A DNA stretch of 64,000 bases, from the NCBI GenBank assembly GCA_025603075.1, contig MU626279.1, forward strand, positions 101,952 through 165,951. The letters are read 5' to 3'. The stretch comes from Neoconidiobolus thromboides FSU 785 (Eukaryota; Entomophthoromycota; Entomophthoromycetes; Entomophthorales; Neoconidiobolaceae). The notes under the pieces were generated by a model, which saw only the letters and a program-made list of their open reading frames with translations, was not told the DNA's origin and ran no database searches. The position numbers and the translations under genes are program-made. Positions 30,112 to 45,687 of this stretch are shown here, in pieces. Each line of letters starts with the position of its first letter. Position 1 is the stretch's first letter.

Positions 30112-30193
30112 GGCACCTTGGCGGAGTGGTTAACGCGGAGCCCTGCTAAGGCTTTTCCCTTTGGGAGCGCAGGTTCGAATCCTGTGGGTGTCG
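30112..30193 (+). tRNA. tRNA-Ser (anticodon GCT)
   Basis: An 82-nt type II tRNA. The acceptor stem GGCACCT pairs with GGGTGTC, the anticodon loop CTGCTAA carries GCT, a long variable arm TCCC-TTT-GGGA is present, and the T-loop is TTCGAAT. The discriminator is G. There is no intron. Eight T shortly downstream (from about 30199) form a Pol III terminator. It sits between the 5' end of CKB1 and the 3' end of the FSH1-like gene. Confidence 0.97.
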
Positions 30194-31819: not shown

Positions 31820-34473
31820 ATGGAAGAACAATTGGAAGTGGTTTATGCTATTCACGAGTTTGATGCTAGTGTTGAAGATGAAATCTCTTTAATTGCAGGT
31901 GAAAAGATTTGGGTCATTGAAAAGGACGAGTTATATAACGATGGTTGGTGGCAGGTAACTATTTTTATGTTATTTTCTAACTTAGAAAATTGGTTTTTTT
32001 ATTAATTTCTCGTTATTAACCAATTTTAGGGTAAAAATAGCCGGGGAGAAGTCGGACTATTTCCGATGAACTTTATTTCTTATAAAGACCCAAACCAAAA
32101 TAATCCCGGTGTTGATCGATATGCTAATTTATTGCTCGAAAATGAAGGTAATTTAAAAAACATACTTATTGTTATTCTAAAGTATTAATTTGTACAAAAA
32201 GAACAAGCGAGCAATAATAAAAAAGAATATAGCAAATTAGGTGGCAGATTAAGTGATCCTATTAATGAAGACGCAAAAAGAGATTCATTTCAAAATTTCA
32301 TTCAAGAAGAAGGACTTAGTCATTATGATTCAAGAGAAGGAAGTAATTATTCGCCATTAGCACCAGCCTTGATACTAAATAATGCAACTAATAATAACGA
32401 CACAAATAACAATCATAATAATATAGAATTGAATAACAATAATGATAATTTGATAAGACATAATTCTACTAAAGTGAGATCCAATCAAAACATAACTGAT
32501 AATGAAGGTCATAAACGTACTTTCACTTCAAATAATCCTTTAACCCCAAATCGCTCCTCGTTTCGTAATTCTGTTCGCTTATCTCATATTGATGATGTCC
32601 ACACTGACCCTTCCCAATCTCATCCGAAATTGTGGTCTAATAATGAAGTATGTGATTGGTTGGAAAGGGCTGGATTTCAAAGTGTTATTAGTTTATTTAA
32701 AGGTAACAACAATACAACAGAGTCATGGTATCATAGTATTAATATTAAATATTATTTAGAACATGAGATAACGGGAAAAGAATTGACAGAGTTAGATTTG
32801 AATACATTAAAAGATATTGGGATATTGGCCTTTGGAAAAAGATTCAACCTAAATAACTCAATCAACTCACTCAAAGTGAAGTATAACATTACATCACTTA
32901 ATCATTCAGATTCAACCAAAAATAACATGGACCACGTTTACAATATGTATTCTGGAGATTCTAATCTAACTTCCCCTATTAAATCTGATATTAGTCAAAA
33001 TAATAATGTAACAGAACAAGTAATTTTAATATAATTTAGGTTATTTAAGATAAATATTTATAACGAGCTATTAGATAAACAAAGATAGAGATATCTATCC
33101 AGTTGAAGAAAGAAAACCTACCAATTTGGAATCAAGTTTAAAAAATTTAAATTTAAATAATAATATTGAAAATCCGAACAGTCATAGTCATATTGAAAAA
33201 TGGTTACAGCAAACACCTGATTTTGATTATGATCATGATTTATTAAAGGTAAGATATCTTGTTTAGTAATGATGATATATTTTAACCAATTAACTAATTA
33301 GGAAGCTGGTATTTCTTCACCCTCTGACTTACAAAGTATACTTTCAGGAAAATCAAAAGACAAAGAAAAGGAACAAGAAGAATCAGGCTCAGAGTCAAAT
33401 GAATCTTCAAACGAAGAAGAGCAAGAAGAATCCAATTATAATGAAATATCACCCGCCGTATCATCCAAATCACCAACTTTACCCAATAATGCGTTACATA
33501 ACAACTCATTAGAATATAAATTCCCTGCTTTCATCCCAAAAACTGATAACCAATTAAAGAAACAGGTATCCTTTTCCCAAAATTTACCAGAAGTAAGATT
33601 GAATTCAATGGATAGACATTTATTTATTTATTTATTTTACAGGTTATTGGTACAAGTGAAATAGTAGAATCTGACAATGAATCTGAGGATGAGAATCAAA
33701 TGTCACTTACTAAAGTAATTTATTATTGTTTTATAATTTTTATAATATAATTAACATATAACAGAAAGCTTCATTATCTGCATCAAAATTGTTTAATAAT
33801 GAAAAAAGGTAAAGATATAACAGTAATTTAATAAAAAATAGCTAATACAATTAAATAGGAAAGTACCACCATCAAATAAAGCTAAAAATGGTATTGATAA
33901 TAATAATAATGACCATACCTTTAATATAGAAAATAACAAAAGCTATACAGTGGAACCGGATACCACAAATAACTATATAAGTAATGGTGATGACAGTACG
34001 ATAACGGTACAAGGTAGTTTAAAGAAACAAGAGGGAGCGATCAAGCTATGGAAGAGTCGTTATTGTGTATTAAATGGGACAGATTTAAAGATTTATGATA
34101 CATTTAAGTTAAAGAAATTGAAATTAAGTATAAATTTAAAGGGTTATAAACCAGTTTTAGACCCAAATCTTAATCCTGGAAAATATTGTTTTAAGCTAGT
34201 GCATCAACATAATAAATCACATTATTTTTGCTCGGATGAAGCTGAGGAAATAAGAGCTTGGATGAAAGCTCTCATGAAAATTTCAATTGATAGGGATACA
34301 AATGGTAATAAGTTTTATTACATTATTAAATCTGTATTTAGTGCTTATCATTTACCATAGCTCCAGTAGTCACATCATGTACTGTTAACACAGTACCTCT
34401 ACACGTAGCACGTAAATTAGCTCCAAGGCCACCATCAGCAATGTACTCAAATGGTGAAGAAGAAGAAGATTAA
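31820..34473 (+). CDS. SH3-SAM-PH polarity protein, Boi1/Boi2-like
   Basis: A 717-residue protein from ten exons (31820-31954, 32030-32147, 32202-32702, 32760-33019, 33075-33248, 33302-33592, 33643-33714, 33765-33808, 33859-34304, 34361-34473). An SH3 domain occupies residues 5-65 (VYAIHEFDA, DGWWQGKN, GLFPMNF). A SAM domain follows around residues 235-300 (WSNNEVCDWLERAGF, LKDIGI). A PH domain is near the C-terminus (LKKQEGAIKLWKSRYCVLNG, WMKALMKISI), then a short tail. This order defines the fungal Boi1/Boi2 family, which links Cdc42 and Bem1 to exocytosis and cell polarity at the cortex. Linkers are Asn/Ser-rich. The 57-bp intron 32703-32759 inside the SAM domain is stopless and in frame, so a naive reading inserts 19 residues there. 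Confidence 0.92.
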
Positions 34474-34927
34474 GCTATAAGATTATTATTATATAAAAAA
34501 GGATCGCATTTTAATATTCTTAATAACTAACCTAGTTATATATATTTTTATATTATATATAAAAAAGACATTTAATATTAATTTGTTTTAATGAGTCTCT
34601 TTTTTTCGCTATTTTATTTTATGGTTTTATTTTATGCCTAGAAAATAACCTCCCTCTCTCCTCTACTTGTCTCTCTCTTATTTTTAGCTTAGTAATTTTA
34701 ATCTATTTTCCTATTCTTTTCTATAAAGTAAATAGTTTCTATTTTATAACTTATTCCAACTTTTAATTTAAGATAAAAATTAAATTGAAACATTTGTCTA
34801 AAAACTAGTCAATTAAAAGCAAATTTTAAGCTCCACTAATAAAACTCATTTAAAAGCCACATTTAAAAATAAAGTGAAAGATTTTATCATAGCTATAATA
34901 ATATAATACAATAATAATAATAATAAA
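34474..34927. other. Intergenic spacer
   Basis: AT-rich, with a pyrimidine-rich CTCTCTCCTC patch near 34650; no gene seen. Confidence 0.5.
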
Positions 34928-36714
34928 ATGGGTTTTTGGACTAAAAAGATGTATTCAAGCCCTGGCAAACTAAAATATGAGAATCAAAGCCCTTTGTTTC
35001 TGCTAGGCAGTTCGCAGTCAAACAGCTTGATTTTAAAACAGAGTGAAGAGGCTCAGAAGGTGAAAGAAACAGAATTAGGGTAAGAGATTAATTTTTATTT
35101 TTGATTAAATAAGTGAGAAGGTATTTTTTTTTATAGTAGGAAGGACATAGACACCAGGACAGGAAAACTTGATAGTAAGGGGATGAATAATAAAGAAAAA
35201 GTAGGATTAGAAACAATAGAAGATAAAAAAGAGAAAAATGAAGACGAAAAACCTAAAGTAAATACTAACGAAGAAAAGAGAGGAAATGAGATAAATAGAA
35301 GTGAAGAGAATGAAGGTAAATTATATTTCACTTTTAATCTATCAATTTAAAAAATGAAATAGATATACCAACCAAAGAAAGGATGAAATTAAAGAAAATA
35401 AAATCATTATTAAAAGATAGTCAACTAGATTTAGGTATTCGTTTTATTAGTGAATATATTTATGAATAACAATTTACAAAAGCGGAATTGAAAAAATTAA
35501 CATGGGGTGGGATACCTTCAGAACATCGAAGTTTGATATGGAAGATACTAATGGGATATGCACCAACGTTAATTGAGCGTCGACAAGAAACAATTAATAG
35601 GAAGAGAAAAGAATATTTTGATTATAGAAAGAGAATATTTATCAAACATAATGAGATCAATGAGATCAATGAGATGCACCTGGATGTTGAATTATGGCAT
35701 CAAATTCAAATTGATGTCCCTAGAACCTGTCCTGAATCCGAGCTTATTCAAGATAAAGTAATACAAAAAGTAAGAATTAATGCTTAGGTGTTTTTATTTG
35801 TTTTAATCACTGTTATTAGTTATTAGAAAGATTACTTTATATATGGTCCACTCGACATCCAGCATCAGGTTATGTTCAAGGGATCAATGATTTAGCCACC
35901 CCATTTATTATGGTTTTTATAGCAGATTATTTTAAAAATGGTATTGTTAGTAGTAGGCAACATGATATATATTAACAATTTTAGGTAAAAAAATCCAACC
36001 TGAAAGTTTAACTCAAGTACAGCTGGATGAAGTTGAAAGTGACGTATTTTGGTGTTTAAGTAAACTTTTGGATGGCATTCAAGTAAGTTCAATAGTGACT
36101 TCAAGATAAACTGGCTTTATTTATTTTGTTTTTAGGATAATTTTACATCAGCTCAACGTGGTATTCAACGCCAGTTAGCCTTGTTGAAATATTTATTAAT
36201 AAAAATTGATGGTAAAATAAATAACTGCCTATATTTTTTAACACTTGAAGTAATAAAGTATTGTATTTTAGTAAAACTAGCAAATCATCTTCAGAATGAA
36301 CAGCTACATTACGTTCAGTTTGCGTTTCGATGGATGAACTGTTTACTGATGAGGGAGTTTCAATTAAATCAGATTATCCGTATCTGGGACACTTATTTAG
36401 TAAGTAGATAGGTATATTTTAATAGTTCATTATTAATTGACATAGTCCGAAACACCTATTGGGTTTTCCCAGTTTCATGTATATGTTTGTGCAGCATTAT
36501 TATCTCATTTTTCGAGTCAATTATTAAAGTTGGACTTTCAAGTAAATTTAAGTTACTATTAAATAGATAAAATTAACTTAGTTATTAGGAATTAATTATG
36601 TTTTTACAAAATTTACCTACAAAGCAATGGGATACTAAAGAAATTGAAGTGCTCCTCTCCCAAGCTTACCTATGGTGTACTATCTTCAACGATGCCCCTA
36701 ATCATTTAATTTAA
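34928..36714 (+). CDS. GYP1: TBC-domain Rab GTPase-activating protein, Gyp1/TBC1D22-like
   Basis: A 444-residue protein from ten exons (34928-35079, 35137-35315, 35363-35434, 35483-35769, 35820-35940, 35985-36082, 36136-36211, 36272-36399, 36446-36541, 36589-36714); phases all fit. After a charged, Lys/Glu-rich leader the TBC domain begins LTWGGIPSEHRSLIWKILMG. The dual fingers are both present: the Arg finger in IQIDVPRTCPE and the Gln finger in SGYVQGINDL. ESDVFWCLSKLLDGIQDNFTSAQRGIQ, FRWMNCLLMREF and RIWDTYL complete the fold. These match Gyp1/TBC1D22, the cis-Golgi GAP for Ypt1/Rab1. Only 145 bp separate its stop from the next start. Confidence 0.92.
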
Positions 36715-36859
36715 TTTAATTTTTACTAAAGTTTAATATCGTTATCTATTATGTTTTTAGCTTTTGATTTTATTTAAGAATAAATTGTTATTTTGATAAA
36801 CAACTATAGCTTTAAATTCCTTTAATTTTATTTATTTTTTACTTTTCATCTATAAAAAA

Positions 36860-38307
36860 ATGAAATCGAGAGCTCAGTTTTTAATAAAAAGTCAATCCTT
36901 TCAATATAGTGTAAAAAGCAGCAAACTGCTGGAAAATGGTAACAAACTTTACAATACATAGTACAAATTTAGTTCTAACAATTCTCAGAAAGCATTCAAC
37001 GTAGCACACAAAGGATCAAAGGGATGTATGATCTATATGGTCAAGATTATAAATTATATGACTCAATCATATCTCATTGCAAAAAAATAGTTCAACTATA
37101 CGGTTATCAGGGTATGAAAACACCAATATTAGAGCATAGCGAGCTTTTCAATCGAGGTTTGGGCCCCACATCTTCCGTGGTCATAGGGAAAGAACTATAC
37201 ACATTTAAAGATGAAAAAAACTCGATAGATTATACACTACGCCCAGAAGGTACAGCAAGTATTTTGAGGAGTATCAGCCAGAATAACCTATTACTGGAGA
37301 GTAGTCACAATAATCTAAGGTTTTATTATCATGGTCCTTTCTTTCGTCATGAACGACCTCAGCGTGGTAGGAATAGACAATTTCATCAGTTTGGAGTAGA
37401 GCTTGTTGGACAAGGAGGATACAACTCAGATTTTGAAGTTATTTTGATGGCAGAACAACTATTGAAAGAATTGGATATCAAAAGTGAGCTTCATATTAAT
37501 AATTTGGGTGATGAGGTAGATAGAAAGAAGTATATTATTGAGTTGAAAAGATATTTAAGTGATAAAAGAGAAAAGTTGAGCGAATTATCCCAGCAAAAAT
37601 TAGATAGAAATCCTATTCGAATTTTTGATTCTAAAGATGAACGGGACCAAAGTATCTTATCAAATGGGCCCCAGTTAAATGAATATTTAAGTGGCGATAG
37701 TAAAGATAGATTCGAATTAATTAAAGAGAAATTGATAAAGTTTAATGTACCTTTTGTATTAAACCCTCATTTAGTTCGTGGTTTAGATTATTATCAAAAT
37801 ACAGTGTTTGAGTTTATTTCTAACGCAAGTGTATTAGGTAAATCTCAAGCTACTATTTTAGCAGGTGGGAGATATGATGGATTATTAAACAAAATCATGA
37901 ATAATAATAGTCCCACTATTATTCCTAGTATTGGATTTGCATTGGGAGTTGAAAGGATCAGTTTATTATTAAAAGGAAAAAAACTAAAAGAGAAAGAAAG
38001 TGTACTATTAGTTGCTATTCACAAAGAAGCTATAACATTAACGAATCAGATGGCTATAGAGTTAAGGAAAATTGGAATACCTACCGTTGTAGAAACGAAT
38101 TTCAATACTAATTTATCAAAACTAACTAAGAAGTATACTAGTCTAAATAATGAGTTCAACAATATTAAGTATTTGTCTTATTTTGGAGAGGATGAAGTAA
38201 AGAATCAACAGTTTAAATTAAAAAATATTCTTAGTAAAGAACAAAGTTTATTAGACTTTCAAAGTTTTATTGAGTTTATTAAAAAAGATTTTACTAATAA
38301 AGACTGA
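36860..38307 (+). CDS. Histidyl-tRNA synthetase, bacterial type, probably mitochondrial
   Basis: A 465-residue class II synthetase from exon 36860-36938 and exon 36989-38307, joined by a 50-bp phase-1 intron. An unspliced reading would start at 37024, inside the conserved KGMYDLYG N-terminal motif, which shows the upstream exon is real. The added leader (about residues 1-27) has Lys/Arg, Ser and Gln and no acidic residue until Glu 26, as in a mitochondrial presequence. Motif 1 region, TLRPEGTAS, motif 2 GPFFRHERPQRGRNRQFHQFGVE, the HisA signature LVRGLDYYQNTVFE, AGGRYDGL and motif 3 ALGVERI are all of the bacterial type; cytosolic HTS1-type enzymes have LRYDLTVP in place of LRPEGTA. It charges tRNA-His. 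The C-terminal anticodon-binding domain is intact. Confidence 0.9.
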
Positions 38308-38565
38308 GTTAAAACCAATTTTTGTTTAAGCTTGTGCTATGTTATTTACTCTTTTAATATTAATATTTTATCTTTACTACCATTATGCTATTTATTTTAA
38401 TATCATCATCATTACTTTTTATTGTAAAACAATTCTTCCATTGATTCTGATTTTTTTATAAAATGTTGAAACTTAATTGGCTTACGAAAGAAAATCAAAA
38501 ACCGAATTTTAAAAATATCAAAAAATCGAAAGATAAACATAACAGTGTTTATTAAATACATTACA

Positions 38566-39834
38566 ATGGAGGTTCAAAAATTAAAAGAGGAGGGTTATGT
38601 ATGGGAACAAACTGAAAGGGAGATCATAATAAAATTTATAGTAAGCAAAGAAATACTAAAGAGGAATTTGAAGGTTCAGATCGAAGCGAATACTATTCAA
38701 GCTAAGGTTAACGATACTGAGTTGATAATAGAGGTAAATTAAAGAAAGGGTTATAATATGATAAAATTAATCCATTATTATTAGGGTAAACTTTATGCCA
38801 ATATAAAGAAAGAAAAATCAGATTATAAGCTTGAGTGGATAGTAAATAAACACTTAAATGAAGAATATCAACAATGTAAAATAACGTTAGTGAAGGATGT
38901 GGAAGGGAGCAAATGGCCATTGGTAATAACTTCAGGTATAAAATTGGGCCAAGAAGCGGATCCAAAAAGTATATTTTTGTTTGCGCAGTTAACAGAGGGA
39001 GTATTACCAGATAAAACAATGGAGCTTTATAAAAAATCAGCTGAGAAGGGGTACCTTTTAGCTCAGTTAAGGTTGGGAGATATCTTTGAGCTAGGAAATA
39101 AAGAAATGAAAAAAGAAAGTGATAAAGAGGAAGCTCTTAAATGGTTTCAGTTAGCAGCAGAAAAGAACTCATTAAGAGCTTTGTTTTATTGCACTAGTTA
39201 TTATTTTAAATCGGATTCAAAGCTTAGTTTACATTATGCTTTGATTACCTTTAATTTATTGAAAGAGAAAATTATTGAACCAAAACATATTGAAAAATTT
39301 GATGCTTATGGGGAGCCAGTAGTGATATCAGAAGAATTTAAAGCTAAAAATGAAGGGAAACTTATGGAGTTGAAAATTTATATCAACACTTGCTTTATAA
39401 TAGCTACTTTATTTTTAGAAGGTAAAAACGGACTTCATTCTGACCCTATTAAAGCTTTATTTTATTGGAAAAAAGCAAGTTTATATAACCATGCTCCTTC
39501 CTGTTATGAATTAGCCCTTCTTTACAAGCAAGGTTTAGGCACTACGCAAAATTTATATCTCGCTGCCACTTATTTTTATAAAGCTTTTGATATCGATCCT
39601 AATTTTCTCGTACCTAACGATACTATTCCTAGAGAGCAATTAAATTTCGTAAAGAAAACTCAACTTGATGATGAAATCATAAAAGAGAATGTGATTGCTA
39701 CTGATTCTCCTATTGCTAAAGATATTCCTAATAATCAATCTACTTCAAATAATTCCATGCGTTGGGTAATAGGGTTATCTGCTGTAGCAGTACTTTCAAT
39801 TGCGTTTATTACATTAAGAAATAAACAACGATAA
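38566..39834 (+). CDS. CS-domain / Sel1-repeat tail-anchored protein
   Basis: A 405-residue protein from exons 38566-38733 and 38785-39834. Residues 1-90 form a CS (p23/NudC-like) beta-sandwich: YVWEQTEREIIIKF, IQAKVNDTELIIEGKLYANI, YKLEWIV. Then come Sel1-type helical repeats (AQLRLGDIFELG, EALKWFQLAAEKNSLRALFY, KALFYWKKASLYNHAPSCYELALLYKQG split over positions 205-235). One hydrophobic segment near the end (WVIGLSAVAVLSIAFITL) followed by RNKQR is a C-terminal tail anchor; the basic tail would suit the mitochondrial outer membrane or ER. CS domains bind HSP90 or client proteins and Sel1 repeats are scaffolds, so a membrane co-chaperone is plausible but unproven. The ATG at 38566 is chosen over an earlier GTG. 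Confidence 0.82.
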
Positions 39835-39972
39835 ATAAATCTCAGTAATATATAATAAAAAAATAAAATGAACAGTTATTGTTTTAATCATTTATTATTT
39901 ATAAACTTATAAAATAAATGTTAATAAAAACGAAAGTCATTGTAATTAAGATTATTAACAACATTTCGTTTA

Positions 39973-40926
39973 TCATCCATCCAAAGGACGATTGAACCCA
40001 CCTTTCCTATTCATATATTGACGATATTGCCTTTGTTTTTTTACATGAGCCCCAGAAACATCTGCATCATCAACTTTTTTGCCCTAGTTTAGTAAGTAAA
40101 AAAATCAACATTAAATAGTATATTTTTTACCTTTGTAGTTTCAAAAGAACCTATTCCCATTAGTTTCATCATCAATTGTTCAGGTGTTAATTCAGCTAAA
40201 AGTATTATTAATCAAAGTTAAAAATTTGAGAAGCTAATCAATACCATCTGGGATTTTACTAAGATCCAACCTAAATAAAATTGATAAATAAATATCTTGC
40301 TAAGTAATATAGTCTACTCTTACTTTTCTTCTTCCTTTTTATCCTCTTTTTCCTCTTCTTCTAAAAGATCAATTTAATTTTTTCAAAAGTAAAAATAAAA
40401 TAAATTACCATTCACCTCCAGTTCTTTTTTTTTTCCTTTCTTTTTATTCTTTTTGCGTGTAGCTTGCTCTTCTGGACTATTACTTCTAGAAGGCGATCGT
40501 CTTCTTCTACCTGGAGATCTTGACCTTCTATTTTCAATGCTCTTTGAACGTGATCTTCCTCTTCTATAAGGTGATCTTGCTCTTCTCCTATAATTAGGAC
40601 TTCTTGAACGGGATCGACCCCCTCTATAAGGGGAACGGGAGCTCCTCCTTCTCCTTGGAGACCCACCTCTTTTTTCTCCTCTTGAATAAGCTAAGTAATC
40701 TTCCATTTCAAGGGCATAGTCTTCAAATGATAAATTAATTGCTGAATTCCAATGCTTTATTTAAATGTTTACCATCTCTTGCTCCACTTCGCCTACCATA
40801 CCTACTCCTAGATCCTGATCTCTCCCTTGACCCCCATCTTCTTCGATCCCTTGATTCTCCTCTCTCTCTTGATCCATCTCTTCTTCGATCCCTTGAATCG
40901 CTTCTTTCTCTTGATTTTTCTCTCAT
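39973..40926 (-). CDS. SNRNP27: U4/U6.U5 tri-snRNP 27K protein
   Basis: A 234-residue protein from six exons: 40926-40773, 40720-40409, 40360-40324, 40270-40245, 40195-40131 and 40083-39973. The first half is an RS domain dense in Arg-Ser, Arg-Asp and Arg-Glu pairs. The C-terminal 55 residues carry the family signature: [18 protein letters not shown], followed by [22 protein letters not shown]. This is SNRNP27/SNU27, a component of the spliceosomal tri-snRNP that helps hold the 5' splice site during activation. The last three exons are small (26-111 nt), so raw frames show only the RS region. Confidence 0.93.
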
Positions 40927-41255
40927 ATTGAAATAAAATGAAAAAAATAAACTTTTAAAATTCAAATTCAAAGTCAAATATCTAAAAAAGTTCAAAGGTT
41001 TATAATACAGTACAAAATTATACATGAATGAAGTAATGAAGTAAAAATATTATAAAAGAATACCAACATAATACTTAACGTAGTATAATAATATTATTAA
41101 AAATGTATAGTAAAAACATAAAACTACAGGTTCTATAAATGCTAAGATAAAATTTTATTAATCATCCAATTTTTAGAGTAAACATAAAATTAAATTTCCA
41201 AAGGCTCGTTGAACTTTTCTAATTCTGCTCAATATCCCTCTCATTACTCTCTATT

Positions 41256-45614: not shown

Positions 45615-45687
45615 TGGAGAACCCGGGCATCGATCCCGGTGCCTCTCGCATGCTAAGCGAGCGCTCTACCATCTGAGCTAGTTCCCC
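45615..45687 (-). tRNA. tRNA-Ala (anticodon AGC), second copy
   Basis: All 73 nt are identical to the plus-strand copy at 1756-1828, including acceptor stem, anticodon AGC and discriminator A. Flanks are unrelated apart from the repeats that lie beyond 100 bp. The identity reflects either recent duplication or strong selection on a tRNA gene. Confidence 0.97.

Follow-up and report, generated by a model that had tools for sequence, protein, structure and literature searches.

A second, bacterial-type histidyl-tRNA synthetase gene beside HTS1 in the entomophthoralean fungus Neoconidiobolus thromboides, with a predicted mitochondrial role

The HTS1 gene of baker's yeast has an AUG-started leader form. 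In many animals and fungi, a single histidyl-tRNA synthetase (HisRS) charges both the nuclear and the mitochondrial tRNA-His, as described in the accessible part of PMC10375062; the same text states that eukaryotic cytosolic HisRS lacks a particular glutamine in the loop of motif 2, and that Met-Thr occupies this site in the main eukaryotic family. The accessible part of PMC3937112 ties this motif-2-loop Gln to the G-1:C73 pair of tRNA-His. In the jakobid Andalucia godoyi, 19 mitochondrial synthetases have been predicted, covering all amino acids except glutamine (PMC7050145, accessible part). A literature search found, among the titles and abstract openings listed, none describing the gene reported here, a second HisRS gene, of bacterial type, in Neoconidiobolus thromboides FSU 785, an insect-associated fungus and member of the Entomophthorales.

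The gene lies within the window, by which we mean the whole 64,000-nucleotide stretch of DNA that was analyzed, itself part of contig C22 (176.5 kb) of an assembly comprising 23.1 Mb in 392 contigs. Judged from its sequence, this second HisRS gene is real, apparently intact, predicted to be spliced, and of bacterial type, and it stands beside HTS1 in a fungal genome. Its predicted product after splicing is 465 amino acids (aa) long. The features of the locus are as follows.

36860-38307, + strand: whole gene for the bacterial-type histidyl-tRNA synthetase, with its ATG at 36860
36860..36938, + strand: exon 1 (79 nt, splice predicted), starting at the ATG, with 26 codons for a basic, acid-poor leader, MKSRAQFLIKSQSFQYSVKSSKLLEN, plus one base
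36939..36988, + strand: predicted spliceosomal intron of 50 nt, GTAACA...TTCTAACAATTCTCAG, with the donor GTAACA, a branch-like TTCTAAC, and the acceptor CAG
36989..38307, + strand: exon 2 (1319 nt), the core of the bacterial-type HisRS, with the stop at 38305-38307
37240..37257, + strand: RPEGTA motif (from the motif and a 12-row alignment), which we take to bind histidine
37345..37389, + strand: motif 2 with its loop, RHERPQRGRNRQFHQ, including the Gln codon (37360-37362) for the residue linked to G-1:C73 recognition
37771..37812, + strand: HisA signature, LVRGLDYYQNTVFE (from the motif and alignment)
37945..37956, + strand: motif 3, GVER (from the motif and alignment)
38002..38286, + strand: divergent, marginally scoring anticodon-binding domain, HGTP_anticodon (20.3 bits on the protein, just under the cut-off of 21, and 23.6 bits, above it, in a six-frame genome search)

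The exon 2 frame is shut on its upstream side by a stop at 36976-36978, and its first ATG is at 37024. Joining 36938 to 36989 supplies an ATG and brings back the residues IKG ahead of the internal Met. In the 12-row alignment of relatives, the Gly before this Met, with Arg or Lys ahead of it, is nearly invariant, indicating that the internal Met at 37024 sits within the conserved start of the enzyme. Enumeration of the ATG-GT-AG joins, with intron length limited to 40-150 nt, gave 11 that enter the exon 2 frame, and only 36939/36988 combined a GTAA donor with the RIKG segment, which is lost in the other GTAA-donor join (36939/37021). By comparison with the 50-nt intron, the nine modelled introns of the host HTS1 are 51-79 nt long and have GTA donors. 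The first-pass annotation had proposed a 50-bp intron at 36939-36988, in phase, and a true spliced nuclear gene; the reading frame and the enumeration of joins both agree with this predicted structure. The public protein for the locus (P0002) begins at the internal Met (window 37024-38307) and is missing the leader exon, and any targeting predictor applied to this record would therefore fail.

The 427-aa part of exon 2 that begins at the first Met matches the hisS model TIGR00442 over residues 1-410 with 367.5 bits, well above the cut-off of 286.75, bearing out the earlier assignment to the bacterial HisRS class; RPEGTA, FRHERPQRGRNRQFHQFGVE, and RGLDYYQNTVFE, which had been cited for that assignment, all occur in the protein as quoted. 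The other 17 models listed for this part, most of which are HisZ models, fall under their cut-offs. The HisRS core of Pfam scores 119.4 bits, and no Pfam match to the WHEP domain was reported in the 427-aa part. Two other identities were considered and rejected: HisZ, the ATP-PRT regulatory subunit (TIGR00443, 137.4 bits against a cut-off of 271.65), and eukaryotic HTS1 (25% identity to the fungus's own HTS1, and a Gln loop). The 427-aa part, modelled with AlphaFold from a 12-row alignment (pLDDT 80.6, pTM 0.69), matches bacterial HisRS structures over its whole length, with 1adj as the best (E 9.1e-41, TM 0.68); its best human structure match has an E value of 1.4e-26. Among the 62 columns that are near-invariant (>=97% uniform) in 101 bacterial rows, 59 are retained in the window protein, 58 in its relative from Massospora cicadina, and 37 in the host's own HTS1, and with 59 of 62 retained, the second enzyme is predicted to aminoacylate tRNA-His.

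The genome also contains a gene of the HTS1 type, a search for which had been suggested earlier as a check. This intron-rich gene is on contig C8, where it was recovered piecewise by TIGR00442. Its splice model encodes 537 aa, as opposed to the 535 aa annotated, and shows 100% identity across the aligned region with the annotated histidyl-tRNA synthetase of N. thromboides FSU 785; two extra residues (GP) of the model near the exon 9/10 junction (L047 3806-3863) point to another splice choice. The possibility that HTS1 is missing was entertained and rejected: its absence was first suggested because a PF13393 search gave two matches only, to the window gene and to a kinase-HisRS fusion, after which TIGR00442 recovered HTS1 on C8. 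The fusion joins a protein kinase to a HisRS-like domain at C27:9835-10719 (G000; L002, L005); it has the GCN2 architecture by eye and, as the sole second PF13393 match, is easily confused with HTS1. Upstream of the HTS1 ATG, a stop occurs at a distance of 20 codons with no in-frame ATG between, such that an AUG-started leader form is not seen, and an upstream exon or a non-AUG start could still exist. Among 17 fungal HTS1 N termini read by eye, 13 begin at the WHEP-like region, so that annotated starts do not discriminate and do not tell whether a second enzyme is needed.

A Thg1 gene is present on contig C40. A pattern search for tRNA-His, of a kind that would miss an unusual T loop, returned 18 places, 9 of which were called tRNA-His by ARAGORN. 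In all nine, there is an A at position -1 and an A73, indicating that these nuclear genes follow the ordinary eukaryotic pattern, with its dependence on Thg1. Within the window, ARAGORN located tRNA genes at 1756-1828 (Ala), 30112-30193 (Ser), and 45615-45687 (Ala).

At the motif-2-loop column, every bacterial row (101 of 101) reads Gln, as do the window protein and its Massospora relative; the host's own HTS1 has T in this column and reads Met-Thr. Because the Gln is kept, the second enzyme should prefer a C73 tRNA-His, and C73 is absent from all nine of the nuclear tRNA-His genes recovered. Different tRNA rules suggest different compartments, making a mitochondrial role the best reading; the mitochondrion would be the natural place for a C73 tRNA-His. 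Of the earlier proposal of a separate organellar enzyme, the separate gene beside HTS1 is supported, and the organellar role is likely by the logic of tRNA identity. The mitochondrial DNA was not found in the assembly, in which COX1 and cytochrome b had no match; the N. thromboides mitogenome MW795364, with 24 tRNAs, is from strain ATCC 12587 and not FSU 785 (PMC8183557). The leader, previously described as mitochondrial-like, is indeed basic and acid-poor (five K+R and zero D+E in its first 24 aa), but the likeness does not extend to amphipathicity, its maximum hydrophobic moment of 0.26 being reached by 91% of 2000 shuffles. Mitochondrial targeting of the second enzyme is thus a prediction.

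Relatives were sought among 5.8 billion proteins, with 8000 candidates scored and the best 120 matches taken in each search. Massospora cicadina is the only other eukaryote among the organism-labelled matches in the best 120, most of the listed matches carrying no label, and a diverged fungal copy ranking under the best 120 would escape view. The same database includes the HTS1 of Entomophthora muscae, Basidiobolus, Piptocephalis, Coemansia, and many Mucoromycota. The Massospora protein (L0F63_005976, P0003) is 43% identical to the window protein over 96% of its length and has the same motif 2 loop. The two form a clade with 100/100 support and have in common two one-residue insertions, which are absent in 101 of 101 and 100 of 101 bacterial rows. 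Between these fungi, HTS1 is 72% identical, as opposed to the 43% of the second enzyme. Organellar synthetases often diverge faster, and the difference was therefore counted for an organellar role. The Massospora protein is unlike its counterpart in having 41 annotated aa before the aligned Met, acidic in character (7 D/E versus 3 K/R in 24 aa).

For phylogenetic analysis, all 139 fetched loci gave an open reading frame; in a Defluviitalea genome there was also a second, weaker hisS match (G199 C12:61864-63027, 244 bits, below the cut-off), perhaps a paralogue. In a quick tree of 91 rows, the two fungal proteins were joined by 29 order relatives, 15 of the 30 class relatives, 34 of the 80 named loci (>380 aa, with limits per class), and 11 other proteins, and a careful tree of 75 rows was obtained by removing 16 that were long, odd, or redundant. 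The contig loci were chosen by likeness to the window protein, which biases that set. In both trees, the fungi fall on the branch that separates the alphaproteobacteria from the rest, lying in the 75-row tree between a set of 54, almost all of them from alphaproteobacteria (97/85), and the remaining 19 bacterial rows (98/96); neither tree has a root on other phyla, and hence neither decides the donor. A rooted set of 56 rows comprised both fungi, 49 chosen bacterial rows, and, as root, 5 Bacillota (5 of 12 fetched loci). Within its 33 "alpha" rows, L049, P0004, P0005, P0016, P0054, P0100, and P0122 are alphaproteobacterial by tree position only. L049 derives from a metagenome-assembled genome labelled Bdellovibrionales, and the branching of its HisRS inside the alphaproteobacterial set points to a wrong label or a moved gene.

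Under the Bacillota root, with support counted among 1000 bootstrap trees, the split uniting alphaproteobacteria and fungi was recovered 963 times with both fungi, 812 times with the window protein only, and 990 times with Massospora only. When both fungi were in, 963 trees placed the pair as sister to the 33 alpha rows as a whole, and 37 nested it among them; Massospora alone was nested within the alphaproteobacteria in 697 of 1000. Approximately unbiased (AU) tests on the 75-row set, whose alternatives left out cyanobacteria and Myxococcota/Aquificota/Clostridia, rejected none of five alternatives in or out of Alphaproteobacteria (P = 0.125 to 0.212). On the 56-row set, for which the groups were named post hoc, after the trees had been seen, and cyanobacteria were again left out, placement with beta- plus gammaproteobacteria is still allowed (P = 0.102); placements with Bacteroidota/Ignavibacteria/Desulfobulbia (P = 0.015) and with Rickettsiales (P = 0.039) are rejected at uncorrected P values. 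Scored against group profiles, the window protein favors a mixed non-alpha set (414) over alphaproteobacteria (390-405), and Massospora favors alphaproteobacteria (396-406) over the mixed non-alpha set (375). The window row has a long branch and an odd composition. The fungal stem is also long (0.85-1.19 changes per column), and a basal position is therefore the expected artifact. The alphaproteobacterial affinity that had been raised for this gene is upheld by the rooted bootstraps but not by every AU test, and on sequence grounds the second HisRS is probably of alphaproteobacterial type.

Because the sequence type is bacterial, one might attribute the gene to contamination of the assembly with bacterial DNA, an explanation to which we give practically no credence: there is an intron in phase inside the gene, the contig that carries it extends for 176.5 kb, and the relative in Massospora has the same insertions. 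Moreover, of six neighboring open reading frames scanned with Pfam, four have SAM, PH, Sel1, or KH domains and two are without match, and the gene matches its AT-rich surroundings in composition (25-33% G+C across 34000-41000). It is also improbable that the second enzyme is cytosolic or moonlighting and that both compartments are still served by HTS1. The tRNA-His genes found, nine of nine without an encoded G-1 and with A73, are a poor match for a Gln-type HisRS, the near-invariant columns are retained, and the host's own HTS1 shows no AUG-started leader. Two observations speak for such a role, namely, a leader without amphipathicity and the acidic annotated N terminus in Massospora.

The origin of the gene is less clear-cut. 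We put at about an even chance a later horizontal transfer, by which an ancestor of the Entomophthorales would have acquired an alphaproteobacterial gene, added the leader exon, and displaced HTS1 from its mitochondrial role. The patchy distribution, with Massospora as the sole other organism-labelled eukaryote among the best 120 matches despite the presence of early-fungal HTS1 in the same database, argues for such a transfer, as does the nesting of Massospora alone within the alphaproteobacteria (697/1000); however, the patchiness rests on the best 120 matches, below which a diverged fungal copy may rank, and a specific donor group was recovered in no tree. With both fungi included, the pair adjoins the sampled alphaproteobacteria rather than nesting in them (963 versus 37 of 1000), which runs counter to later transfer and is consistent with descent from the mitochondrial ancestor, whereby a proto-mitochondrial HisRS was retained here and lost in most other eukaryotes in favor of a dual-targeted HTS1. 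Retention of the canonical G-1:C73-linked residue is likewise in keeping with this descent, which we nevertheless regard as unlikely: the long fungal stem would by itself be expected to yield a basal position, many losses are needed, the best 120 matches include no further organism-labelled eukaryote, and Massospora alone is nested. That the gene of the endosymbiont itself survived is a possibility we do not favor, and it is rather doubtful that the Entomophthorales retained a proto-mitochondrial HisRS together with the bacterial G-1:C73 code in their mitochondria, orthogonal to the cytosolic system of Thg1, A73, and HTS1.

We favor, with a probability of roughly 0.74, the reading that the locus encodes a second nuclear HisRS of bacterial type and alphaproteobacterial affinity, present in at least two Entomophthorales, that is mitochondrial and charges a G-1:C73 tRNA-His. 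Under this reading, the spliced leader would carry the second enzyme into mitochondria, where it would charge a mitochondrial tRNA-His whose encoded G-1 is paired to C73, assisted by the Gln of the motif 2 loop; in the cytosol, HTS1 would act on a tRNA-His (A73) whose G-1 is made by Thg1. The gene would have an alphaproteobacterial source, namely, the ancestor of mitochondria itself or a donor that passed it on at a later time to an ancestor of the Entomophthorales. An alphaproteobacterial-type HisRS beside HTS1 would constitute a natural pair, with two discriminator-base rules in one cell. Such a pair lets one ask whether a mitochondrial tRNA-His has stayed bacterial in identity on account of its synthetase having done so, and also raises the question of the descent of the enzyme from the endosymbiont. 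If the two rules hold, compartments of one cell may recognize tRNA-His differently.

Compared with known systems, the second enzyme resembles the HisRS of alphaproteobacteria (Rickettsiales, Rhodospirillales, and kin) in its whole-length architecture, the motif-2-loop Gln, and an NLSK-like C-terminal segment, and differs in an identity of only ~36-46%, the two one-residue insertions of the fungal pair, and the leader exon. With fungal HTS1 it shares the same reaction, but HTS1 is 25% identical, has a WHEP domain (PF00458) and Met-Thr rather than Gln, and is encoded here by a separate gene. In plants, according to the accessible part of PMC10375062, a distinct organellar HisRS likewise exists next to the cytosolic one; unlike the enzyme described here, it is apparently of archaeal origin and has the Met-Thr motif. 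A predicted mitochondrial HisRS is also part of the Andalucia godoyi set (PMC7050145).
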